NCBI RefSeq assembly: GCF_900182905.1
Contig: NZ_FXUF01000016.1
Coordinates: forward strand, 1-64,000
DNA from: Anoxynatronum buryatiense
GTDB lineage: Bacteria; Bacillota; Clostridia; Peptostreptococcales; Tindalliaceae
Direction of reading: 5' to 3'
DNA length: 64,000 nucleotides
Shown: positions 36,181 through 60,388 of the stretch, piece by piece
Layout of the letters: each line of letters begins with the position of its first letter
How positions within the stretch are numbered: position 1 is the stretch's first letter
Translations under genes and position numbers: made by a program
The notes under the pieces: generated by a model
Seen by the model: the letters and a program-made list of their open reading frames with translations, nothing else
Told to the model about the DNA's origin: nothing
Database searches by the model: none

Positions 36181-37725
36181 TCAGTTGTTACTGTTGTTAC
36201 TGTTGTTACTGTTGTTACTGTTGCTACTGTTGTTACTGTTGCTACTGTTGTTACTGTTGCTACTGTTGTTACTGTTGCTGCTGTTGCTGCTGTTGTTACT
36301 GTTGCTATTGCTGTCTGATCCCTGGCTACCGCTGGTGTTCTCCTGGTTATTGGGCACACCTTGGGAGTTTCCCGGATTCTCGTCAAAAACCGGATGGGTT
36401 TGATCCGGTTTTTCTTCGGTTTTATTGCCTTTGCCCGGATTTTCATCAAACACTGGATGTTCCTTCTCTGGCTGTGGATCATTTACCGTACCCCGGCCGG
36501 GATGTTCATCAAAAACCGGATGATTTTGATTTCCATCAGTCTGCGGTTCTTCCTCTTCAACCGGCGGCTTACCTACTTGGGGCGTCTCTGGTTTTTCAGT
36601 TTGTCCATTGCCCTGCCCCGGGTGTTCTTCAAAGACAGGATGTTCTTTTTCTGCTGATATGTCGTCGTCTGCCTGATCCTCTTTTTTCGGTTTCGCAGGT
36701 TCAGCCGGTTCTGCTGGTCGTTTTGCAGGCTGATTGCCCTGACCCGGGTGTTCTTCAAAGACCGGATGGATATCACCCTTGTTTTCCTGCTGTGTTGTTC
36801 CCGGATGGGTGTCAAACACAGGATGTTCCTTTTCTCCTGCTCCACCGTTATTCTCAGTTTTCTCCTGCTGACCGCCTGGGTGCGACTCAAAAACAGGATG
36901 CTGTCTTTCTGTGGAAGCAGGTGACAGCATCTCTTCCGGACGCTTATGGCGAAGCAGTTCCTTCACCATTTCGGGTACAGGAGGTTCGCCATGACCATAT
37001 TTGACGTTGTTGTCACTGTTTTCAATTTGATGCATTTCCCAATAGGCTTCCCGCAGGACAACTTGATTCAGAGAAATTCCCTCCTGTTTTGCCAGTGCCA
37101 CCTGCTGGGGAGTGCCTTTAAATGCCAAGAGTTCCAACGTCAGTTGCCGACTTTCAATTTGTTCAGTCAGGCGGTTTTCCATCAGCATCAGCAGCCGGTC
37201 CACAGCTTCTGCCGCTTCGTCTCCAGAGCTCATAGTTGCCAGGGAAAGCACCAGATAATGCATTTCATCCCCGTTCAAATAGCCCTGGTCTTCCAATCGT
37301 TCCAGGAGAAAGGTCATCGCATCTTCCGCCGGCTGGTTTTTCATAGATTTCAACTGCAGGGTAGCTGCATCATCATTAAGCGCTGTTGCTGCAATAACTT
37401 TTCCATCTGCCGCTAATGTGATCTCGAGGCTGGGGTTCACGTCAATGGATACCAGATATGCCACTGGCTCCGGTCGAACCCACCAGAGAAAGCTGCTCAT
37501 ACCGATCAGCATGAAGATGGCCGCAGCAATGGCTGCAGGCACGAACGCCGAAAAACGTTTCTTTCGCCGGCTGGTTTTTTCTGCAGCCGGCATTCTGGTA
37601 AACTCAATTTCAGTTCCGGCAAAAACCGAATCCGTCGTATGGGGGATTTCAATGAAGTCGCAGGAACTGGTCATCACAACTAACGTGTGCTGACGCACTT
37701 CGATGACACACCCTTTTTCTTTCAT
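36181..37725 (-). CDS. rsgI: RsgI-like anti-sigma-I factor with HPVF repeats
   Basis: 514-residue single-pass membrane protein. The N-terminal ~55 residues form the cytoplasmic RsgI_N domain that binds SigI (MKEKGCVIEVRQHTLVVMTS...). TM at about residues 62-82, then the conserved extracytoplasmic RsgI region (YLVSIDVNPSLEITLAADGKVI...) followed by an extended low-complexity ectodomain: seven copies of HPVF(D/E)xxPG (pattern HPVFEEHPGQG) separated by acidic, Pro-rich spacers, and an Asn/Ser tail. Clostridium thermocellum RsgI proteins carry carbohydrate-sensing ectodomains; here the repeat array takes that place and its ligand is unknown. It overlaps sigI by 4 bp (ATGA), the usual order. Confidence 0.92.
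   Translation of the reverse strand: MKEKGCVIEVRQHTLVVMTSSCDFIEIPHTTDSVFAGTEIEFTRMPAAEKTSRRKKRFSAFVPAAIAAAIFMLIGMSSFLWWVRPEPVAYLVSIDVNPSLEITLAADGKVIAATALNDDAATLQLKSMKNQPAEDAMTFLLERLEDQGYLNGDEMHYLVLSLATMSSGDEAAEAVDRLLMLMENRLTEQIESRQLTLELLAFKGTPQQVALAKQEGISLNQVVLREAYWEMHQIENSDNNVKYGHGEPPVPEMVKELLRHKRPEEMLSPASTERQHPVFESHPGGQQEKTENNGGAGEKEHPVFDTHPGTTQQENKGDIHPVFEEHPGQGNQPAKRPAEPAEPAKPKKEDQADDDISAEKEHPVFEEHPGQGNGQTEKPETPQVGKPPVEEEEPQTDGNQNHPVFDEHPGRGTVNDPQPEKEHPVFDENPGKGNKTEEKPDQTHPVFDENPGNSQGVPNNQENTSGSQGSDSNSNSNNSSNSSNSNNSSNSNNSSNSNNSSNSNNSNNSNNSNN
36184..36311 (-). repeat. 9-bp microsatellite encoding the Asn/Ser tail of RsgI
   Basis: About fourteen near-identical 9-bp units (plus strand GTTACTGTT with GTTGCTACT variants). 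Units are multiples of three, so copy-number change alters only the length of the Asn-Ser-rich C-terminal tail. The same stretch makes a misleading poly-Leu open frame on the plus strand. Confidence 0.95.
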
Positions 37726-38462
37726 TTTGATCCCTCCTCCACCGATCGAATGTACGTTTTCATTGTTTCCAGGTCGCTGTCAAGAATCATCATGACCGCG
37801 AGAATAAACTGCTTGCTCCGGTCCACCGTTTTTTTAGTCACACCGTACTCTTGCTGCAAACGTTTAAGCGGCATGCGTCCACTTTTCAGAGCTGCTTCCC
37901 TTAGATCTTGCTGTTCATATAGGAAACGGGCGATTCGAATGGCATTCCGTCTTGTATCTTCATGTTTTGGGGCGTTTTCCACCAAATTATCCAGTGTCAA
38001 TCCCACCTGAGCCAGTCGTTTAACCAACTGTTGCATCTCTTCCTGAATGGAAAGCGTTTCTTCTGGAGGCGGACGCCACAGGACACGCACCTGCCCGGCA
38101 GCAGCTCCCTCAATGCCTTCATCTCCAAGCGCCGTAAAGGGCATCTCATTCACAGCACCTTTGTTTTTTCTGAGGTGATCAATGGCGCGGTTACGAATCA
38201 CCGTTGCCGCAAAGGGCAAAAAACTGCCCCGTTCCAGCTGGTAGTGGTCGATGGCTTCATTAAAAGCCATTAAGCCAATTGAAAAGACATCATCGTTTTC
38301 TTCTTCGATGTAACGCCCCAATTGTTGGCTTAGATTTTTTTTGATGAAAGGAGCATATTCCCGAATCAGCATATTCCGCTCAGATTCACTGCCGGACTGA
38401 GCGGATATCACCCGCTTTTCCAGTTTTTTGCCAAATGGAATGTGCTTCAGAAGCGATGGCAC
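37722..38462 (-). CDS. sigI: RNA polymerase sigma factor SigI
   Basis: 246-residue sigma-70-family factor of the SigI type. Region 2 includes YIEEENDDVFSIGLMAFNEAIDHYQLERGSFLPFAATVIRNRAIDHLRK, and a C-terminal helix-turn-helix replaces normal region 4 (LKRLQQEYGVTKKTVDRSKQFILAVMMIL). Directs transcription of envelope or heat-response genes under control of RsgI, which it overlaps by 4 bp. The frame is open to an ATG at 38504, but GAGGAGG precedes a GTG at 38462 with 7 nt spacing, giving the usual length; I choose the GTG. Confidence 0.92.
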   Translation of the reverse strand: MPSLLKHIPFGKKLEKRVISAQSGSESERNMLIREYAPFIKKNLSQQLGRYIEEENDDVFSIGLMAFNEAIDHYQLERGSFLPFAATVIRNRAIDHLRKNKGAVNEMPFTALGDEGIEGAAAGQVRVLWRPPPEETLSIQEEMQQLVKRLAQVGLTLDNLVENAPKHEDTRRNAIRIARFLYEQQDLREAALKSGRMPLKRLQQEYGVTKKTVDRSKQFILAVMMILDSDLETMKTYIRSVEEGSK

Positions 38463-38800
38463 GCTGCCACCTCCTCGCAAATTAAATACGAAACTGGGTT
38501 TCATTTTAGGGTACTAAATTGCTGACTGATGATGATTGTTATATTCTATCATACCCATCTATCTTTTCCATTCATTCTTAAACCTTTTTTAATTGCACTT
38601 ATTCTCTGTTCACAACATCATATCATGACATCGCATGCCTTCTCTGTTAAGCAGCGTTAAACAACTTTAAGAACACTTTTCACACAGGGAATGGGTAAAG
38701 GTTTATTTTCCAACGCTGCATATGTTTTGCCGAATGGTTTCGGGGTAACATATTATTAGTTTCCAACCCTGTCCATTCCAAGGTTTGAGGAGATGTCTTG
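38463..38800. other. Divergent regulatory region between sigI and the first BTAD regulator
   Basis: No gene. AT-rich; it should hold the promoters of both operons. A TATTAT at 38751-38756 is a possible -10 for the plus-strand regulator. A SigI-type promoter (ACCCC... CGAA) could be expected upstream of sigI for autoregulation but I see no convincing copy at the right spacing. Confidence 0.4.
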
Positions 38801-40033
38801 ATGGTTCACCAGGAAAACAGATTAACCTCCCGCTCAGATTCAGTGCTTATCATCAGGACACTGGGTCGGTTTAGTGTTCAAAAAAACGGATGCACACTCA
38901 CTGCAGAGTCTCGCAGTTCAAAAAAAATCTGGACACTTTTTAAATACCTGCTCACTTTTCGGAACAAAAGCCTATTGCCCGAAACCATCGCTGATCACCT
39001 GTGGCCCGACCAGAACTACAGCAATCCCCGCAACCTGCTGCGCACCCAGTCTCACCGGCTTCGCAAAATGCTGGGAGAGCACAACGACAGTTCCGGCCCC
39101 ATTGCATATCAAAATGGCTGCTATTTCTGGAATGAAACACCGTCTTGCCTGATAGATATCCTGCAGTTTGAATCATTGTCCAAAGAAGCCCGTTCCATCA
39201 GTAACACAGCTCCCCGCGAAGCAGTTGAATGCTTCCGCGAAGCTTTGGATTATTATCTTGGAGATTATTTGCCTGAATGTGCTGAGGAGGAGTGGGTGAT
39301 TCCTCCCCGCATTCATTATCGGCGGTTATTTATCGAGAATGTGTTGAGTCTGTGTCACCTCCTCACCCAATACCAGCAATATACACAGGTGCTGGAAACC
39401 GCTGAGAAAGCCATTTCTTTAGAGCCCTGTGAAGAATCATTTCACCTGGTGCTGCTGAACACTTTACTGCGTCTGAACCACCGGCGAGAAGCGCTGGCAC
39501 ATTATCAGTATGTGACCACCTATCTGTATCGGGAGTTGGGAGTGTCTCCCAGCAATGCCCTGAAGCAAATATACCGTCAGCTGCACAACAGCGATTCCTC
39601 ATTCGAAATACCAATAGCCATTGATTCCTCCGACAATCTTCACCACCCCTCTGATCAGGCTTATTTATGTGCTCCTGATGTTTTTCGTTCACTGGCAGAA
39701 ATTGAAGCACGCCGTAACCAGCGGGATAACCGGCCTTTTTACATCTGCTTTTTTTCATTAGCGTATGACGATTCCACCAGGCATGATCGGCTCGATCTCC
39801 CTCATCGAGGCCATGAGCGGTTGCAGTTGTTTCTGATGTCCAATCTGCGTCAGGGCGATGTCCTCACCCGATGGTCAGAGGCTTCCTATGCAGTGCTTTT
39901 CAACTGCCTGGCAGAAACCGGTTTGCCCCAGGTGATTGAACGCCTCTTGCTTCGCTACAACGACGCGCCTTTAATACCTCGTTCACGTTTGTCCGCTTCC
40001 ATCACCGAATCATTGGATGCGTTGCCACGATAA
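38801..40033 (+). CDS. BTAD/SARP-type transcriptional regulator with degenerate GGDEF-like C-terminus (paralog 1)
   Basis: 410-residue protein. Residues about 15-110 form an OmpR-like winged helix (RTLGRFSVQKNG, NLLRTQSHRLRKMLGE), followed by a bacterial transcriptional activator (BTAD) TPR domain (about 115-260: CFREALDYYLGDYLPE, HRREALAHYQYVTTYLYRELGVSPS). The last ~130 residues resemble a shortened GGDEF fold: FRSLAEIEARRNQRDNRPFYICFFSLAY, then LRQGDVLTRWSEASYAVLF. There RQGD keeps the I-site RxxD and the five-residue spacing to the position of GGDEF, which reads SEASY, so cyclase activity is not expected. Paralogous to 42688-43968. c-di-GMP sensing is inference. ATG 38801 follows TGAGGAG. 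Confidence 0.8.
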   Translation: MVHQENRLTSRSDSVLIIRTLGRFSVQKNGCTLTAESRSSKKIWTLFKYLLTFRNKSLLPETIADHLWPDQNYSNPRNLLRTQSHRLRKMLGEHNDSSGPIAYQNGCYFWNETPSCLIDILQFESLSKEARSISNTAPREAVECFREALDYYLGDYLPECAEEEWVIPPRIHYRRLFIENVLSLCHLLTQYQQYTQVLETAEKAISLEPCEESFHLVLLNTLLRLNHRREALAHYQYVTTYLYRELGVSPSNALKQIYRQLHNSDSSFEIPIAIDSSDNLHHPSDQAYLCAPDVFRSLAEIEARRNQRDNRPFYICFFSLAYDDSTRHDRLDLPHRGHERLQLFLMSNLRQGDVLTRWSEASYAVLFNCLAETGLPQVIERLLLRYNDAPLIPRSRLSASITESLDALPR

Positions 40034-40120: not shown

Positions 40121-40310
40121 ACGCGTTCTCTTGAATCCAGTGACGCATGAATCTCATGAAACAGCCATGAAATGCCCACGAAGCAACTATGAAACCACTC
40201 TGATGCATTGGTGAAAAATTCCTGTATGTTCCATGAACGGTGTTGCAGGTTATGATGTAAATGGAATCATCATGTGCGGTCATCAACTGCCAGAGAGGGA
40301 GGAACAGCCG

Positions 40311-40562
40311 ATGCATCCGCCAATACGTCCCGAAGATGGTCAATCCATTCCCGGTGGAACACACTTTTTAATCCGTATTCAGTATCAGCAGAATAACAGT
40401 TGGCAGGGGACGATTCAATGGCTGGACAACAGAAAAATCATCCCTTTTCGTAGTACCCTTGAAATGATCCTCCTGATGGAAGAAGCTTTGGTGTTACATG
40501 CCGGCAAAGATCAGCAACAATCGCAGTTTCGACACTGGAACAGAGAGACGGAAATCGGCTGA
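40311..40562 (+). CDS. Small hypothetical protein
   Basis: 83-residue protein of unknown function (start 40311 with GGGAGGA upstream; the frame is open to 40233 without a binding site). It contains THFLIRIQYQQNNSWQGTIQWLDNRKIIPFRSTLEMILLMEEAL, which looks like a small beta-strand/helix domain seen beside other clostridial surface-protein genes, though I cannot name the family. It is followed after 57 bp by the small LPQTG protein gene and probably shares its transcript. Confidence 0.6.
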   Translation: MHPPIRPEDGQSIPGGTHFLIRIQYQQNNSWQGTIQWLDNRKIIPFRSTLEMILLMEEALVLHAGKDQQQSQFRHWNRETEIG

Positions 40563-40619: not shown

Positions 40620-40991
40620 ATGACCATGAAGCGGCGACCAAAAAAAACATTAAGCCTGTTGCTCGTTTTCTGGTTGGTGTCATTACTGACCGTTGGGTCA
40701 CTGTTGACCACCTTTGCCACTGAAAATACCTTTGAAGCTGATGCCACACATGCGGCTCAGATTCCAGCCACAACACCGGCAGTCATCTCCTCCGTAACTG
40801 TCGACGAAACAGCTGCCGGAGCGTTGCAGCCAGAATTATTGATGGCGGCCTCCAGTTCAGGAATTCTCCCCTTACTGCCCCAAACCGGAAATCTTCCTCC
40901 TGCTGTTTTCTACCTGCTTGGATTGGGGCTGGCCGGCATTGGAATGGCCGCCCGAAAAAGCAAAACACAAAAGAAAACCCATCAAACATAA
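40620..40991 (+). CDS. Small sortase-anchored (LPQTG) surface protein
   Basis: 123-residue pre-protein with a signal peptide (residues 1-34, cleavage near TFATEN), a short Thr/Ala-rich mature segment of about 50 residues, and a full cell-wall sorting signal: LPQTG, a hydrophobic helix (FYLLGLGLAGIGMAA) and a basic tail (RKSKTQKK). After sortase cleavage only ~55 residues would be displayed, so it may be a tether, a pilin-like cap or a substrate reporter rather than an adhesin. The matching sortase is encoded at 44021-44710. AAAGGAG sits 8 nt before ATG. Confidence 0.85.
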   Translation: MTMKRRPKKTLSLLLVFWLVSLLTVGSLLTTFATENTFEADATHAAQIPATTPAVISSVTVDETAAGALQPELLMAASSSGILPLLPQTGNLPPAVFYLLGLGLAGIGMAARKSKTQKKTHQT

Positions 40992-41212: not shown

Positions 41213-42013
41213 CTACACTTCACTGGTTTTAGTAAAAGCCGTGCTATCCTTGAACATCTTTACAGGTGTCTTGCTCTGTCGGTAGGCAGCATCCATGGTG
41301 GTATCCATCGTCTGCCATTCGCCTTCCACCAGTATTTCGTTCCATGCATGATACACATCAATTCCCGGGGCGTACCCCTTTGCCATTCTGGCAGGCACAC
41401 CCACACTCCGCATCATGGCTGCAAAGAGAGAGGCATAATCGTAGCAGATGCCGCTGCCTGCTGATAAAGTAGCGTCGATATCTGGTTGATAGCCACTGGT
41501 GACCGTAGCTGCCTTGGCGTCATCATATCGGATATTTTCAACAATATAATCGTAGATGGCTGTCACTTTTTCCATGTCTGTGGTTAATCCGGCAGTCAAG
41601 ACTGCTGCTTTCTGAATGGCTTGCATGTTTTGATCCCATCGAATTTCCTGAACAGAACTGAGGAAACGGGCTGTCGGATCAACAATGGCCACTTCAATGG
41701 TTTCGGTTTTGATGGGGCGGTACTGGTTACCACTCACATGTTCAAGGATGGAAACTTTGTACTGTCCGTCACCTAAAAGCAGCGGTATGGTTTCTTCTGT
41801 TCTTGTTGCCGAAAGATCAAAAACAGACCGCTCACCGCCTTTTTCAAGCATGATTTTGGTGGCAGTATGTCCTGGCACCTGGTATTGAACCGATAAAAGT
41901 CCGGTCTCCAGTGAACGGGTATCAAGTGAAGCCACTTCCATCGCACTGGCTGATCCCATACTGGCAATAACCAAAACCATCAATAACATCACCATAAACC
42001 GGCTTTTTTTCAT
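41213..42013 (-). CDS. Secreted transglutaminase-like protein controlled by c-di-GMP riboswitches
   Basis: 266-residue protein with a signal peptide (residues 1-25, ending ASAMEV), a beta-rich N-terminal region, and a transglutaminase-core domain with catalytic triad candidates Cys in GSGICYDYASLFAAMMRSVGVPAR, His in VYHAWNEILVEG, and Asp in QTMDTTMD. Family members cross-link or cleave surface peptides. Start chosen at 42013, with AAGGGAG upstream. The 5' leader holds two tandem c-di-GMP-I aptamers, the nearer ending 2 nt before the ribosome binding site. It sits among sortase and LPQTG genes, suggesting processing of those surface proteins. Confidence 0.88.
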   Translation of the reverse strand: MKKSRFMVMLLMVLVIASMGSASAMEVASLDTRSLETGLLSVQYQVPGHTATKIMLEKGGERSVFDLSATRTEETIPLLLGDGQYKVSILEHVSGNQYRPIKTETIEVAIVDPTARFLSSVQEIRWDQNMQAIQKAAVLTAGLTTDMEKVTAIYDYIVENIRYDDAKAATVTSGYQPDIDATLSAGSGICYDYASLFAAMMRSVGVPARMAKGYAPGIDVYHAWNEILVEGEWQTMDTTMDAAYRQSKTPVKMFKDSTAFTKTSEV

Positions 42014-42029
42014 AAAAAAGACTCCCTTT

Positions 42030-42101
42030 CGGTAGCTGGCTGCCATTTTACAGGCCCTTTAGCTTTGCGTCCTCCAGTTTCCTGAAGTTTGCCTTTATCG
42101 G
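42030..42101 (-). ncRNA. Cyclic di-GMP-I (GEMM-I) riboswitch, gene-proximal copy
   Basis: On the minus strand: AAAGGCAAAC, then the P1b hairpin CUUCAG-GAAA-CUGGAG, the invariant GGACGCAAAG, a P3 side with GGGCC, and AUGGCAGCCAGCUACCG at the 3' end. All are hallmarks of the c-di-GMP-I aptamer. The 3' end abuts the AAAGGGAG ribosome binding site of the transglutaminase gene (42021-42028) and no terminator is evident, so translational control is most likely. Confidence 0.92.
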
Positions 42102-42140
42102 TGGAAAGCGGTTTTGGGGTAAATAAAAAAACTTCTTCTT

Positions 42141-42213
42141 CGGTAGCTGGCTGCCATTTTACAGGCCCTTTAGCTTTGCGTCCTCCGGTTTCCCAAAGTT
42201 TGCCTTTATCGGT
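42141..42213 (-). ncRNA. Cyclic di-GMP-I riboswitch, distal tandem copy
   Basis: A second aptamer of the same class, 40 nt upstream of the first. Its P1b hairpin is CUUUGG-GAAA-CCGGAG; compared with the proximal copy the stem changes are compensatory, good evidence for a conserved RNA structure. GGACGCAAAG and the 3' AUGGCAGCCAGCUACCG are identical. The two copies are otherwise over 80% alike, suggesting recent duplication. Confidence 0.92.
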
Positions 42214-42264: not shown

Positions 42265-42292
42265 ATTATATCATCAAATATATTTTTGTAAA
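42265..42292 (-). promoter_or_regulatory. Promoter of the tandem riboswitch-transglutaminase transcript
   Basis: Minus strand TTTACA (42287-42292), 16-bp spacer, TATAAT (42265-42270). A transcript from here begins about 45 nt before the distal aptamer and includes a small GCTCGT/ACGAGC hairpin. Confidence 0.75.
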
Positions 42293-42687: not shown

Positions 42688-43968
42688 ATGAATCATGCAG
42701 TAACTGACGAACCGACAGCGAAGGATCAGTCTGTGATCACCATAAAGACTCTGGGTTGTTTTGATGTGGAAAAAAACCGTCAGTCTCTGGTAGAAGCTTC
42801 CCCAGGGTCCAGGAAGCTGTGGGAACTTTTCAAGTTTATGCTGACCCACCGACAACGTTCCTTCACACCCGAGGCATTGCTGGATGGTTTGTGGGCATCA
42901 GAAGATTATAATGATCCCCGAAGCACCCTTCGCCGCCAGATGCATCGGCTTCGCCAAATTCTTGAAGAGAATGAAAACAGCCAGGCTTCCTATATGAGCA
43001 TTGTCTACGTCAACGGCTACTATCGATGGAATCCGGAGGTTGATGCCCGGGTGGACGTGGATATTTTTGAATCTTCCGTTCAGCTGGGAGAAGCTTTGCA
43101 GCATGAACATCCAGAAAAAGCATTGTTGCATTATCAGAAGGCCCTTTCAATGTACCATGGTGATTACTTGCCGGAATGTACCGATCAACAATGGGTTTTT
43201 CCGGTACGCAGTCACTATCGCCGCCAATATTTGAAAGCTGTGTTGTCGTCCACAGGTTTGTTGATGGAACTTGGTCAGTTTGCCGAAGTACTTCGAATTT
43301 GCGAGAAGGCCATTGAGTTGGATGTCTACGAGGAAGAATTTCATCTTCGCCTGATGGAATCGTTGTTGCAACTGGGAGAACGCAAACAGGCACTTACTCA
43401 TTATGAATACATCACCGGTTTCTATTATCAGGAACTTGGCCTCAAACCCACACCTGCTCTGAAGTCGCTGTATAAGCGCATGCTCTCAACACAGCCCACC
43501 CTTGATTCCATGGATGCCCTTCATGCTGATCTGGATGGGATTGATCCCCTTGAAAATGCCTATTTTTGTAATCCTGATGTGTTTAGATCCATCTACGAGC
43601 TGGAGCGCCGCCGCAGCGAACGCAGTGGTGCCCAGGCAATGGTGGGTATGGTTACCATGAGTCACCCCTCATCTGCTTCTCACGGCAAACAGCAACAGCG
43701 CATGCAGGCACTGCAGCAACACCTGCTGCACCAGCTTCGAAAAGGCGATACTATTACCCGTTGGAATGATTCTCAGTTTCTGGTGCTTCTTCCCGGTCTT
43801 AATACCGAAACCATGGAGGCGGTATTGCAACGCGTCATCCAAAAATTCCCCCGGGAAACTCCGGATGACTTGACCCGTATTAAGACTCACTGTCATCTGA
43901 TTTTGCCGCCGGCGCAGCTACCCCCGGGTGGCTTTGCTGCTGCATCCCCTTCTTCCTTTGCCGATTAA
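42688..43968 (+). CDS. BTAD/SARP-type transcriptional regulator with degenerate GGDEF-like C-terminus (paralog 2)
   Basis: 426-residue paralog of the protein at 38801-40033 with the same order: winged helix (KTLGCFDVEKN, STLRRQMHRLRQILEEN), BTAD TPR region (LLHYQKALSMYHGDYLPE, RKQALTHYEYITGFYYQELGLKPT), then a ~130-residue C-terminal domain. The latter has NPDVFRSIYELERRRSERSGAQAMVGMVTM and LRKGDTITRWNDSQFLVLLPG, a pattern close to RxxD-x5-GGDEF-xxLLP of diguanylate cyclases but with NDSQF at the catalytic site. It should therefore bind rather than make c-di-GMP, if it binds nucleotide at all. Start 42688 is 8 nt after AAGG; the GTG at 42679 lies in the binding site. Next to sortase and adhesin genes. 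Confidence 0.82.
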   Translation: MNHAVTDEPTAKDQSVITIKTLGCFDVEKNRQSLVEASPGSRKLWELFKFMLTHRQRSFTPEALLDGLWASEDYNDPRSTLRRQMHRLRQILEENENSQASYMSIVYVNGYYRWNPEVDARVDVDIFESSVQLGEALQHEHPEKALLHYQKALSMYHGDYLPECTDQQWVFPVRSHYRRQYLKAVLSSTGLLMELGQFAEVLRICEKAIELDVYEEEFHLRLMESLLQLGERKQALTHYEYITGFYYQELGLKPTPALKSLYKRMLSTQPTLDSMDALHADLDGIDPLENAYFCNPDVFRSIYELERRRSERSGAQAMVGMVTMSHPSSASHGKQQQRMQALQQHLLHQLRKGDTITRWNDSQFLVLLPGLNTETMEAVLQRVIQKFPRETPDDLTRIKTHCHLILPPAQLPPGGFAAASPSSFAD

Positions 43969-44003: not shown

Positions 44004-44047
44004 AACAGCAACAGCAGGCTTCAAAAGCCTGCTGTTGCTGTTGTTTG
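44004..44047. terminator. Bidirectional terminator overlapping the sortase stop codon
   Basis: AAACAGCAACAGCAGGCT and its complement AGCCTGCTGTTGCTGTT form a long perfect stem around TCAAA. It lies between the convergent BTAD regulator and sortase genes; the sortase stop codon (44021-44023) falls inside the hairpin. Confidence 0.9.
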
Positions 44048-44710
44048 ATCGTTTTCTTCCTCTTCAGACTCCACCATGACACCGTGTATGATCAGCCGAT
44101 GGGATGCCACGTAGATGGGGTCGCAGGTAATCAGCGTGACCACTTTATCCCGGCTGTTCCGGTTTAACACCGATAAGTCAGTGGGTTCCACCACTTTTAT
44201 TTCATAAACCCGGTACACATAGGTTTCTTCAGGCGTTGTTATATGAATGGTATCGCCCAGTTTCACCTCATTCAGCCGATTGAAAAAACGCCCGTAGGTA
44301 TGACTTCGGTGAGCTGCAATGGCAGCATTGCCAATACTGCCAATGGGTGAAGTGCCGTCCAGCAATGCTGCTGCCGTTTTAAGATTATGATCACTGGCTC
44401 CCTGTACCACCGGCATCTTTGCATCAATTGCAGGGATTTCCAAACTTCCCAGCAGCGCGCCTTCTTCCGCCGGTCTTATTTCCTCCGGTGATGCCTCAAA
44501 GCCCTGTTCTTCCTCGTCATAGGCCGTGAACATCTCCTGCAGTTCCTGATATGCTTCCACCGTTTCCCGTTCCAGTTCCATCTGAGTCAGTTGCTCCTCC
44601 AGTTCAGCCATCAGTCTGGCTTCTTCCCGCTGTTCAATATAACGATTGACTGCCGGATAAAGCGCGATCACCAGCCCGGCAATGATCAAAATAGTGGAAA
44701 ACTTGCGCAT
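44021..44710 (-). CDS. Sortase (class D-like)
   Basis: 229-residue membrane-anchored transpeptidase. N-terminal TM at about residues 4-22, an acidic coiled linker (to about 90), then the sortase barrel: LGSLEIPAIDAKMPVVQGAS, catalytic His in GNAAIAAHRSHTYGRFFNRL, Cys in VVTLITCDPIY, and Arg in ASHRLIIHG. The TLITCDP/xxxHR layout and small size match class D rather than class A or B. Its likely substrates are the two LPQTG proteins of this locus. Start at 44710 has GGGGAGGG upstream. It follows the large LPQTG gene by about 210 bp on the same strand. Confidence 0.92.
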   Translation of the reverse strand: MRKFSTILIIAGLVIALYPAVNRYIEQREEARLMAELEEQLTQMELERETVEAYQELQEMFTAYDEEEQGFEASPEEIRPAEEGALLGSLEIPAIDAKMPVVQGASDHNLKTAAALLDGTSPIGSIGNAAIAAHRSHTYGRFFNRLNEVKLGDTIHITTPEETYVYRVYEIKVVEPTDLSVLNRNSRDKVVTLITCDPIYVASHRLIIHGVMVESEEEENDQTTATAGF

Positions 44711-44922
44711 GGCCATCCCTCCCCGATTTGACAAATTCGATAAACGCAATGTGTGGCGTTAATGACTCTAAATGTGCTGCCAGATCAGTTTTTCCAACTT
44801 GCGACGAAAAAGGAGAGATCAGTTTCATCTCTCCTTTATTGTATACCCATTCTCCTTGTTGTCTATCTTTTCCGGCCATTCACTAATTATTTATATCCAT
44901 TTTTTTGGAAACTGCAATGCTG

Positions 44923-47040
44923 CTACGCTTCGATATTCTTTCGGAAAAGAAAACCTGCTGCCGCCAGCAATATGCCTGCAATATAGTAGAAGACAGGATT
45001 CCCTTCGCCAGTCTGTGGAAGCACCGGAACTCCCAGGGGAATCATTTCATCCAGTACAATCACTTCATCTGGATCAGACTGGGGAACCACCGGGGCTGCC
45101 AAAGGAATCACAGGATCGTCAAGTGTCACAGTTTCTGTCAAAACAACCACTGGGTCGTCAGGATCATCTGCCGGTTCGTCAGGATCATCTGCCGGGTCAT
45201 CAGGGTCATCAACGGGATCTTCGGGATCTTCGGGATCTTCGGGATCTTCAGGATCTTCAGGATCTTCAGGATCTTCAGGATCTTCAGGATCTTCAGGATC
45301 TTCAGGATCTTCAGGATCTTCAGGATCTTCAGGATCTTCGGGATCTTCGGGAATCAATCGATTGATGATAATAATCGTCATGTCTTCCATCCCTGGATTG
45401 ATAAAGAAGATGATTCCCTCATCAACACCGTCATCTTCACCAAGCAACCAGATACTTTCACCAATCTGGTAACCCACAAGCTGGTAACCATCAGGCACAT
45501 TTATTTCTTCAAGGATATATGCTCCGAAATCCAATCCTTCCACCGTGACATCATTGAGTTGGCTCAGGTCATCAAATAGTTTTGGAAACCCGTCTTCGTC
45601 TTCCAGTTCTTCTTCCACTTCTTCAAGAATGGATACCAGATCCATTTCTGTCAGCCTGACTTCAAATTCGAATACCTGTTCATCGCTTTCAACGACATTG
45701 TCATTTTCATCGATCACTCTTTTTTCAACAATCACTGTCGGCGGTTCCTCTTCGCAGGGTGTTTCAGGCAGCACCACCCGTGCACTGTGGAGACGCTGAG
45801 CACTTTCAAAGGCTTCACCATGATGTGGCGGTATTTCCACCAGACCCGGTTCCCATTCGCCTTCCACCAGTCGATAGGTGTACAGATCGATTTGAACAGG
45901 TTCGCAGTCACGAGGGGTCTGCACCTGTAGAACAATGGTTTCAGGTCCTTCAAAGAGATGATGATCGTCATCGAACCAGCTTTGCACCTCATAAGGTTCA
46001 CCATTGGGTTGCACGTCGGTTCCCGGCGGGTACTGGTAACTGGTAAGATGGAATCCAATGCAGTAACCCTCATTGACGGTGATTTCCACACGATTGTTGT
46101 CCAGCCACGTCACTGTAAAATACTGGTTGCTGTAAGGCTGGTTAAGCTGTATGCTTTCAATGTAGATGACGGCATCCAGAGGAACCATGATGCAATCGGG
46201 TTCAACGTAATTTTCAAGGCATACATGGCTGAGTACCAGTTTGGCACCACCACTGCCCGCTGGAACAACCAAAAATGCGTCCACCAGCACGTCGTGATCC
46301 GGTGTGCCCACAAAGAAGTGTTGTACGTTACCGTTTCCCACGGGCTGTCCGGCAACCATTTTGGTGCCGGCATTCTGGAAAGTTGCTTCCAGCATCAGAG
46401 GTCCTTCATCCACCTGAAGCTGATTGGCCACGAAATGCCATACCACCGGATCTGTCAGTCCACCGCAATCAGACTCATTCTCAAATTCAGTGCTGGATGC
46501 ATTTCTGTGAGGACTGTGGAGCTCAACGCGAATTTCTTCCAGAACCACTTGCTGAAAACCGCCCAGGGGAACAGGAACTTCGTCGATATTTTCAGTTTCT
46601 TCCTCTTCTTCCCCGGTATCACCAGTGGTTTCATCTGCGGTTTCTCCCCCAGTGTCATGATTGGCAGTTTCTTCTTCGTTTGCATCTTCGTTTACGCCAT
46701 CATCAGCAGATTCTTCATCAGTGACCTCTTCTTCCTCATCCACTGATGATCCTTCCTGAATGGTGTCATCACCGACATCAGACTCATTTGCTTCTGTCGA
46801 TTCGCCGGAGTTGTCCGGTTCTCCCACAGATGCTTCGCCATCTTCATTATCCGGCGCATTGCTCTCATCGTCAGCCATTTCATTTGATTCTTCAGCCGCG
46901 GTTTCCTCCGGCACCGAATCAGCAAATACCATGCCCACTCCCATACTGGGAATAAATCCATAAAAGGCTACCAGTATAACGACGATCCATACGAATAATT
47001 GCTTGGCGCCTTTTTTTCTGATATTTTCTCTGCTTCTCAT
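44923..47040 (-). CDS. Large sortase-anchored (LPQTG) surface protein with acidic stalk
   Basis: 705-residue pre-protein: signal peptide (residues 1-40, ...FYGFIPSMGVGMVFA), a highly acidic Asp/Glu/Thr/Ser segment (to about 125), a beta-rich region (about 130-430), a Cna-B/SpaA-like prealbumin domain (VEKRVIDENDNVVESDEQVFEFEV ... GAYILEEINVPDGYQLVGYQ), an (EDP)15 stalk plus DDP repeats, and a sorting signal (LPQTG, hydrophobic helix, FRKNIEA). It looks like an adhesin or pilin-like backbone. Start 47040 has AAAGGAG 8 nt upstream; GTG 47049 overlaps that site. Controlled by a c-di-GMP-I riboswitch with terminator and a Fur-like box. Confidence 0.9.
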   Translation of the reverse strand: MRSRENIRKKGAKQLFVWIVVILVAFYGFIPSMGVGMVFADSVPEETAAEESNEMADDESNAPDNEDGEASVGEPDNSGESTEANESDVGDDTIQEGSSVDEEEEVTDEESADDGVNEDANEEETANHDTGGETADETTGDTGEEEEETENIDEVPVPLGGFQQVVLEEIRVELHSPHRNASSTEFENESDCGGLTDPVVWHFVANQLQVDEGPLMLEATFQNAGTKMVAGQPVGNGNVQHFFVGTPDHDVLVDAFLVVPAGSGGAKLVLSHVCLENYVEPDCIMVPLDAVIYIESIQLNQPYSNQYFTVTWLDNNRVEITVNEGYCIGFHLTSYQYPPGTDVQPNGEPYEVQSWFDDDHHLFEGPETIVLQVQTPRDCEPVQIDLYTYRLVEGEWEPGLVEIPPHHGEAFESAQRLHSARVVLPETPCEEEPPTVIVEKRVIDENDNVVESDEQVFEFEVRLTEMDLVSILEEVEEELEDEDGFPKLFDDLSQLNDVTVEGLDFGAYILEEINVPDGYQLVGYQIGESIWLLGEDDGVDEGIIFFINPGMEDMTIIIINRLIPEDPEDPEDPEDPEDPEDPEDPEDPEDPEDPEDPEDPEDPEDPEDPVDDPDDPADDPDEPADDPDDPVVVLTETVTLDDPVIPLAAPVVPQSDPDEVIVLDEMIPLGVPVLPQTGEGNPVFYYIAGILLAAAGFLFRKNIEA
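45214..45348 (-). repeat. Fifteen tandem 9-bp units encoding an Glu-Asp-Pro stalk
   Basis: Fifteen uninterrupted copies of a 9-bp unit (GGGATCTTC or AGGATCTTC on the plus strand) encode (EDP)15 in the large LPQTG protein. Outer units carry G and inner units A at the first base, as expected for expansion from the middle. Copy-number change would lengthen or shorten the wall-spanning stalk without frameshift. Confidence 0.97.
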
Positions 47041-47177
47041 CCGACTCACTCCTTTCGCAGGTCACAAGATGTGTTCACGCTTCTCCTAATGTTTTCAGTC
47101 ACCAGAACCCCTGAATCACTTCTTCTATTTTTCACCTTTATATCGACCCCCTTGACGCCAGCCGTTTTTTGAAAATA

Positions 47178-47206
47178 AAAAAACTGCCGAAAATAATCTC
47201 GGCAGC
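47178..47206 (-). terminator. Riboswitch-associated terminator of the LPQTG gene leader
   Basis: Minus strand CTGCCGA (47200-47206) pairs with TCGGCAG (47185-47191), followed by seven T. The 5' arm is the conserved 3' edge of the c-di-GMP aptamer (GGCUGCCGAG), so aptamer and terminator compete. That layout favours ligand-dependent read-through (an ON switch); this is inference. Confidence 0.85.
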
Positions 47207-47288
47207 CGGACGATCATGACACCTGAATATCGGTGTGTTAGACTCTTGACTTTGCGTCCCATTCTTTCGAATGGTTTGCCTTTTTCTG
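47199..47288 (-). ncRNA. Cyclic di-GMP-I riboswitch of the large LPQTG gene
   Basis: On the minus strand: AAAGGCAAACC, P1b hairpin AUUC-GAAA-GAAU, GGGACGCAAAG, an extended P3 with a CACACC.../GGUGUC helix, then AUGAUCGUCCGGCUGCCGAG. The first half is nearly the same as the well-studied Vibrio Vc2 aptamer. It lies about 160 nt upstream of the start codon and ends in an overlapping terminator. Confidence 0.9.
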
Positions 47289-47290
47289 TG

Positions 47291-53326: not shown

Positions 53327-53499
53327 CTTTTATTTGGTAACCCGAGAATACATTAAGCGGCAGTGAGAAATACAAAAAAGTAATTGACAGCCCAAACCTT
53401 AACAATGCCTATTAAGTGAGTGAATTGCATACTTCACCTTTTTGCCAAATCAAAAGAGAATAGAGTAGAAAACTGATTTCAATGGGTGGCCTTTACGTG

Positions 53500-53600
53500 T
53501 CGCCCATTTATTTTCAGCCTCCCCTCATCAAACCGTACGTGAGGTTTTCCCTCATACGGCTTTCCTATCCTCTTCGTCAAGTGCAATGACGGCTGTAAAT
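53500..53600 (-). mobile_element. 3' fragment of a group II intron (domain V-like)
   Basis: On the minus strand, AAGCCGTATGAGGGAAAACC followed by TCACGTACGGTT and GATGAGGGGAGG is the typical domain V hairpin of bacterial group II introns. The rest of the intron is absent here. A short open frame over it (KPYEGKPHVRFDEG) is a known translation of this RNA and is not a gene. The remainder of 53327-53691 shows no gene. Confidence 0.75.
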
Positions 53601-59869: not shown

Positions 59870-60388
59870 GTGCTAGTTCGCTCCTTTCCAAGCCTTGAGT
59901 GATAGCAGAGATCCTGCCCTCCATCCGGTTATGTTGTCCGGATGTTCTTCGGTACTATGTTCCCCTCTGACTCCCTTCCGTCAAGTTCCCATTTCGGTTC
60001 CCCTTATAAGGTTCCTCTTTACGGCCGTCAGGTCATGACGGGGAGGGTCTCCCCAGTTCCGCTCATTACTTTCCCAGCATTTCGTTTCCCTTACTCCGGG
60101 AGATTCTTTGGTCCTGACTTCCAAGTTCATGGCACCGTCCATGGCCATCACCTATGCACAAGAGGTTCGGCTTCTCCTTGTCCTTTCTCTCGGTTTCTTT
60201 TAACGAAGCGGCAGAATTCACTTCATGTTACAACCTGCTGGTTTGCTTGCCCGATTTTCATCGGTACTTTTTCACAGGGCTTCAACCTTAGGATTTCTCC
60301 ACCAGTTGCCTGTCAGCTACTGAGCATCTTGGCATTTACTCAGACTGGACTTTCACCAGTTAGCAATTAACGGCTTGCTGAGCACGCG
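59870..60388 (-). ncRNA. 5' part of a group II intron RNA (domains I-IV region)
   Basis: The minus strand runs from about 60388 (starting near GTGCTCAGCAAGCCG) through AACTGGTGAAAGTCCAGT, GGAGAAATCCTAAGG, and GGAACTGGGGAGACC to a GAGGGCAGGATCTCTGC segment and GGAAAGGAGCGAAC just before the maturase start. These are typical domain I and pre-maturase sequences of bacterial group II introns. A plus-strand open frame of 142 codons across it is an RNA-derived artefact. The 3' domains are missing here; a domain V piece lies at 53500-53600 and could be from the same or another copy. Confidence 0.78.

Follow-up and report, generated by a model that had tools for sequence, protein, structure and literature searches.

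Gene content of the locus

The gene of interest lies in a 64,000-nucleotide stretch of Anoxynatronum buryatiense DNA (hereafter, the window) and encodes a protein with the layout of the SARP/AfsR regulator family: a winged helix followed by a BTAD domain, both of which score above their Pfam cut-offs (Table 1). An earlier note, made from the sequence alone, had assigned the N-terminal half in the same way. The open reading frame is intact, beginning at ATG 42688 or GTG 42679 and with a stop codon that ends at 43968. The C-terminal part resembles a GGDEF domain, the domain of diguanylate cyclases, in which the catalytic motif has been replaced. The alignment on which the earlier note based this resemblance, LRKGDTITRWNDSQFLVLLPG, is present as written: R351-K-G-D354 is followed by five residues and then by NDSQF. 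A paralogue in the same window retains the positions R308, R312, R351, D354 and R382, and gives no GGDEF match with Pfam.

The regulator gene is surrounded by genes for exported and wall-anchored proteins, several of which lie behind c-di-GMP riboswitches. A tandem pair of aptamers is found directly before the transglutaminase-like gene, which diverges from the regulator gene; a third aptamer precedes the genes for the LPXTG protein (whose stalk contains a long EDP repeat, 44923–45400, minus strand) and the sortase. The genome contains ten c-di-GMP-I aptamers in total, three of which are at this locus; the earlier note had not picked up these three. Tandem c-di-GMP-I aptamers before transglutaminase-like genes have already been reported in Bacillota (PMC12452182). 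As ten bases are common to the terminator-like hairpin and the 3' end of the third aptamer, a bound ligand would be expected to prevent terminator formation and thereby turn the gene on.

Table 1. Features of the regulator gene and its surroundings (window coordinates).
Feature	Coordinates	Strand	Basis
Paralogue 1, same architecture, 38% identical to paralogue 2	38798..40033	+	Pfam, alignment
Small conserved protein, no known family, often adjoins SARP-GGDEF genes	40233..40562	+	
Small protein: LPQTG near end, membrane stretch, basic tail	40620..40991	+	
Exported transglutaminase-like protein behind tandem riboswitch; longer frame from 42046	41213..42013	-	
c-di-GMP-I(-GGC) aptamer, second of tandem pair	42027..42102	-	Rfam 64.1 bits; RF01051 68.3 bits
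c-di-GMP-I(-GGC) aptamer, first of tandem pair	42138..42213	-	Rfam 64.7 bits; RF01051 67.9 bits
Promoter-like site TTTACA-16-TATAAT, 11/12, before tandem riboswitch	42265..42292	-	alike in three relatives
SARP-GGDEF regulator gene (paralogue 2), 426 aa	42688..43968	+	ORF + Pfam
Winged-helix DNA-binding domain, OmpR-type, residues 41-111	42808..43020	+	Trans_reg_C PF00486, 34 bits, cut-off 26.2
BTAD domain, residues 122-266	43051..43485	+	PF03704, 88.1 bits, E 9.2e-25
Degenerate GGDEF domain, ~residues 296-400	43573..43887	+	Pfam, profile search, models
R312, WspR R198 position (I-site arginine from partner protomer)	43621..43623	+	82/89 homologues
RxxD I-site motif R351-K-G-D354	43738..43749	+	87/89 and 89/89; PleD R359/D362
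NDSQF replacing GGDEF, residues 360-364, dead catalytic motif	43765..43779	+	GG[DE]EF 0/89
R382, PleD R390 position	43831..43833	+	85/89 homologues
Sortase	44021..44749	-	Pfam E 5.2e-33
LPXTG (LPQTG) wall-anchored surface protein	44923..47049	-	
Terminator-like hairpin overlapping 3' end of third aptamer	47182..47207	-	
c-di-GMP-I aptamer	47198..47290	-	Rfam 74.1 bits

Of the intergenic regions compared between the window and three relatives, only the promoter-like one before the tandem riboswitch is similar in all four. SARPs bind short direct repeats before their target promoters; no direct repeat that could mark such an operator is common to the intergenic regions of these four sequences, and the repeats seen in the window only may be due to chance.

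Several other elements of the window were noted along the way. Of 25 other neighbourhoods, 8 have a homologue of the small conserved protein (35–38% identical) close to the SARP-GGDEF gene, in several cases directly before a c-di-GMP riboswitch; the genome holds two further copies. Positions 36181–38504 (minus strand) encode an RsgI-like anti-sigma protein with HPVFDEHPG-type repeats and a polyasparagine/serine tail; the gene adjoins that of a sigma-70 region-2 protein, giving a pair of the SigI/RsgI type. Matches to group II introns are found at 53460–53564 and 60223–60362 (minus strand).

A GGDEF domain with a kept I-site and a lost active site

The search with the Pfam GGDEF profile (PF00990) that the earlier note had suggested gives a match over residues 338–391 of the regulator (E = 1.9e-5) that narrowly passes the curated cut-off, at 24.9 versus 23.8 bits. 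The match spans only profile positions 58–114 of 161, a short stretch for a domain, which we count against our preferred reading. The same profile is matched by 41 of 51 homologous domains at E ≤ 0.01. Searched alone against proteins of known structure, the C-terminal domain matches GGDEF proteins (5m3c, E = 2.9e-5; Thermotoga maritima 4urg, E = 0.0025), as does a profile of the 51 homologous domains (4urg, E = 4.2e-11; DgcR, 6zxm, E = 1.1e-9). Two related families were tried and rejected: GGDEF_2 (PF17853; 15.1 bits, below the cut-off of 24.5) and PelD_GGDEF (a weak match of 16.5 bits, below the cut-off of 27).

Structure prediction leads to the same fold. In an AlphaFold2 model of the full-length protein (mean pLDDT 71.8, seven sequences), the N-terminal part matches EmbR (2ff4, E = 1.2e-9) and the AfsR initiation complex (8k60, E = 2.0e-9; TM score by target 0.74), and GGDEF proteins are among the lower-ranked matches. 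The C-terminal domain was also modelled alone (pLDDT 77.9, pTM 0.70), with low confidence at its C-terminal end. For this model, all 50 of the 50 Foldseek matches listed are GGDEF proteins, and superposition onto PleD (2v0n) gives a Z score of 12.7 and an rmsd of 2.5 (115 aligned). The earlier note had itself named the fold comparison as a check, and the predicted fold is that of GGDEF rather than an unrelated one. The agreement of the structural database matches, the homologue profile and the model fold indicates a resemblance beyond chance.

Conservation was assessed in 89 full-length homologues, obtained from 110 full-length open reading frames by dropping copies with identical last 250 residues; the set was drawn from the fetched part of the family matches, and three partial frames with a tail were excluded. 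Despite a median pairwise identity of 26% across 22 taxonomic families, the residues of the I-site rank among the best conserved of the GGDEF domain: D354 is found in 89/89, R351 in 87/89, R382 in 85/89 and R312 in 82/89 homologues. Other well-kept C-terminal positions are F299 (88/89), C294 (81/89), L350 (80/89) and R308 (79/89). The triad R351/D354/R382 is whole in 83 homologues, 79 of which also carry R312; it is broken in the other six, a point against our reading. The GG[DE]EF motif occurs in none of the 89, which rules out an active diguanylate cyclase, and the old motif is partly kept, with N or S at position 360 in 74/89 and Q at position 363 in 63/89. The conservation of RxxD thus bears out the earlier note. 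Together, an intact RxxD and a dead active site are a hallmark of degenerate-GGDEF c-di-GMP receptors.

Judging from the alignment ranges and the profile map, the triad corresponds to residues 359/362/390 of PleD (2wb4). R351/D354 and R312 map onto residues 242/245 and 198 of WspR (3bre), and the triad onto residues 206/209/237 of DgcR (6zxm), provided that the DgcR construct has 20 extra residues. R382 and R312 are thus I-site residues beyond the RxxD recognized previously. At the position of PleD R390, WspR has a lysine according to our mapping (position 273). The PleD I-site consists of R359, D362 and R390 together with R313 of the partner (PMC7288161), and that of WspR of R242xxD245 together with R198, contributed by a symmetry-related domain; WspR retains c-di-GMP only if each of the arginines is present (PMC2270323). 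In DgcR, R206xxD209 is joined by R237, the equivalent of PleD R390, which is too distant in that structure (PMC8041772).

As a control, we turned to the other GGDEF domains of the same genome. Of 35 such places, 34 entered the comparison, and the 12 without GG[DE]EF by scan were dropped. Among the 22 that remain, the first arginine is present in 15, the aspartate in 13 and the third arginine in 11, and the whole triad in seven. The GGDEF fold hence tolerates loss of the triad; the SARP-GGDEF family does not. RxxD and the R390 position are nonetheless common in ordinary GGDEF domains too, which we also count against our reading.

Distribution of the family and its riboswitches

Members that bear the GGDEF tail were found in 16 of 99 close relatives (the genome of the window included, and matches to BTAD only removed) and in 40 of 391 genomes of the class sample, or around one in ten (8 genomes dropped). 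The family is also widespread in a phylum sample: matches at E ≤ 1e-35 were obtained in 72 of 299 genomes, though in many of these they cover no more than the BTAD part. The 53 carrier genomes used below omit those matched outside the GGDEF tail or partly (9/25 among close relatives, 8/48 in the class sample); a named example of a carrier is Fusibacter bizertensis. The P values given in this section assume independent sequences and genomes, though these are related.

A true GGDEF protein (E ≤ 1e-15) is encoded in 51 of the 52 carriers other than the genome of the window, as compared with 281/382 genomes of the class sample, carriers included (Fisher P = 1.4e-5, genomes treated as independent). 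In the sole carrier without such a protein (G296), the homologue's triad is broken, with R382 replaced by S (locus L136); this coincidence is a single case, seen after the fact. A second genome (G015) has another homologue with a broken triad and contains two GGDEF matches.

In 10 of the 53 genomes, a class I c-di-GMP aptamer is located no more than 5 kb from a family gene, where 0.81 such genomes would be expected (P = 2.6e-9, genomes treated as independent). The ten genomes belong to six families; four of the ten genomes come from the family of the window itself. Drawing a single genome from each of the 22 families gives an average of 3.54, compared with an expectation of 0.27 (median P = 2.2e-4, 95th percentile 0.025). 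Class I riboswitches occur in 39 of the 53 carriers, and 29 of these 39 have none within 5 kb, which again counts against our reading. The nearby riboswitches in relatives precede genes for VWA/MucBP, thioester/MucBP, LPQTG and camelysin (PF12389) proteins, the last of which are TasA-like.

Twenty neighbourhoods were inspected individually, with riboswitch carriers deliberately over-represented: ten contain a c-di-GMP riboswitch and ten do not. In the five loci from named records, a class I riboswitch lies 0.4–0.5 kb downstream in three (L038, L039 and the F. bizertensis locus, L040), a class II riboswitch lies ~6.6 kb away in one (L037), and no c-di-GMP riboswitch was found in another (L041). 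Among 20 further short loci, one has a class II riboswitch. Class II riboswitches near other family members were recorded at L151 3391–3473, L083 11328–11410 and L037 15841–15924. The gene order transglutaminase–regulator–sortase was observed in close relatives only.

A candidate c-di-GMP-responsive transcription factor

We propose, with a probability of roughly three in four, that the regulator is a c-di-GMP-responsive SARP transcription factor, in which the winged helix and BTAD domain would bind DNA and the dead GGDEF domain would act as the sensor. A response to c-di-GMP is strongly suggested by retention of the I-site at 26% median identity alongside loss of GG[DE]EF throughout the family. 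The N-terminal half would contact DNA and RNA polymerase in the manner of AfsR-type SARPs. An intercalated c-di-GMP dimer would then be held, like that in WspR and PleD, through R351/D354/R382 on one protomer and through R312 on the other; it may thereby cross-link two C-terminal domains and impose a dimer geometry that either permits or prevents DNA binding. Because the gene sits among surface-protein genes under c-di-GMP riboswitches, the regulator probably controls these sticky-surface genes in response to c-di-GMP. Likely targets are the neighbouring adhesin, sortase and transglutaminase genes and, in relatives, the TasA/camelysin-like matrix genes, so that c-di-GMP would be sensed at two points in the locus, namely transcription initiation and the RNA leader.

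A GGDEF domain could, hypothetically, be kept for other purposes. It may serve only for dimerization or protein docking—by pairing with an active cyclase or phosphodiesterase, for example—and leave c-di-GMP unbound. GGDEF domains do dimerize, trigger enzymes that control regulators by contact are known (PMC5052742), and true GGDEF proteins abound in the class. The best-kept residues, however, are those of the charged I-site rather than an interface, the fold has no need of the triad, and c-di-GMP riboswitches cluster at the locus. We regard docking as improbable, albeit the strongest of the alternatives. The domain may instead accommodate another ligand, such as GTP or a different cyclic dinucleotide, either in the former active site or in the I-site. 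A degenerate GGDEF domain that binds GTP is known (CC3396; PMC7288161), positions 360 and 363 are partly kept, and the tandem aptamers are matched by the model of the variant c-di-GMP-I-GGC family. Yet no alignment is obtained for the part of PleD with the metal- and guanine-binding residues, the motif is gone from every homologue, the I-site is conserved better than the old motif, and GGDEF proteins accompany the family in nearly all carriers; a different ligand is accordingly quite unlikely.

The domain may, lastly, be the decaying, functionless tail of an ordinary SARP regulator. The loss of the catalytic motif and of part of the domain would fit decay, as would the BTAD-only relatives in the same genomes. 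Conservation of four I-site residues in a family this divergent contradicts it, and we consider it very improbable.

Taking these points together, our best reading is that c-di-GMP-responsive SARP regulators form a family widespread among clostridia and control adhesin and matrix genes. We see about an even chance that the idea extends to a phylum-wide, so far undescribed class of one-component c-di-GMP receptors. In these SARP activators, c-di-GMP intercalated between two dead GGDEF domains would clamp the dimer; together with neighbouring riboswitches they would make up a double-reading circuit, with one messenger governing both transcription start and RNA read-through of the adhesin and matrix genes. 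Most of what is known of c-di-GMP output in clostridia concerns riboswitches. For many c-di-GMP-regulated genes of Clostridioides difficile, the mechanism has been called unclear (PMC6200980). If our reading is true, the family would supply a missing protein arm of this output, a DNA-binding protein would have taken over a dead enzyme domain as its sensor, and one locus would read one messenger at two levels.

The earlier note knew of no description of such a protein type. Likewise, full-text literature searches, with subscription journals and preprints outside their coverage, returned no SARP/BTAD-GGDEF fusion. Of two papers that contain both BTAD and GGDEF, PMC1262709 names them in different proteins, and neither word was found in the available main text of PMC2447327; a 2025 review of c-di-GMP effectors (PMC12564702) mentions neither SARP nor BTAD.

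The regulator shares features with several known systems. EmbR and AfsR have the same combination of winged helix and BTAD domain. The C-terminal part of EmbR is an FHA domain. AfsR ends in NB-ARC/TPR (PMC1262709); the tail of the regulator differs from both in being a dead GGDEF domain. With PleD, WspR and DgcR it shares the fold and the I-site positions, and unlike these active cyclases it is catalytically dead, with DNA binding as the predicted output. In lacking a catalytic site and keeping RxxD it is like PelD (PMC7288161) and PopA (PMC12564702), the receptors with which the earlier note had drawn a parallel; neither of these binds DNA, PelD being a membrane protein of Pel export and PopA a response regulator that acts via proteolysis. 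FleQ is a DNA-binding protein controlled by c-di-GMP (PMC12564702). VpsT and BldD are also described as DNA-binding proteins under c-di-GMP control, as proposed here. To our knowledge, none of these three belongs to the SARP family or senses c-di-GMP by way of a GGDEF I-site. Finally, the locus is like those of C. difficile, in which c-di-GMP riboswitches precede genes for LPXTG-type, sortase-dependent adhesins (PMC6200980); the available text of that paper names no c-di-GMP-binding transcription factor, whereas here a candidate sits within the locus itself.
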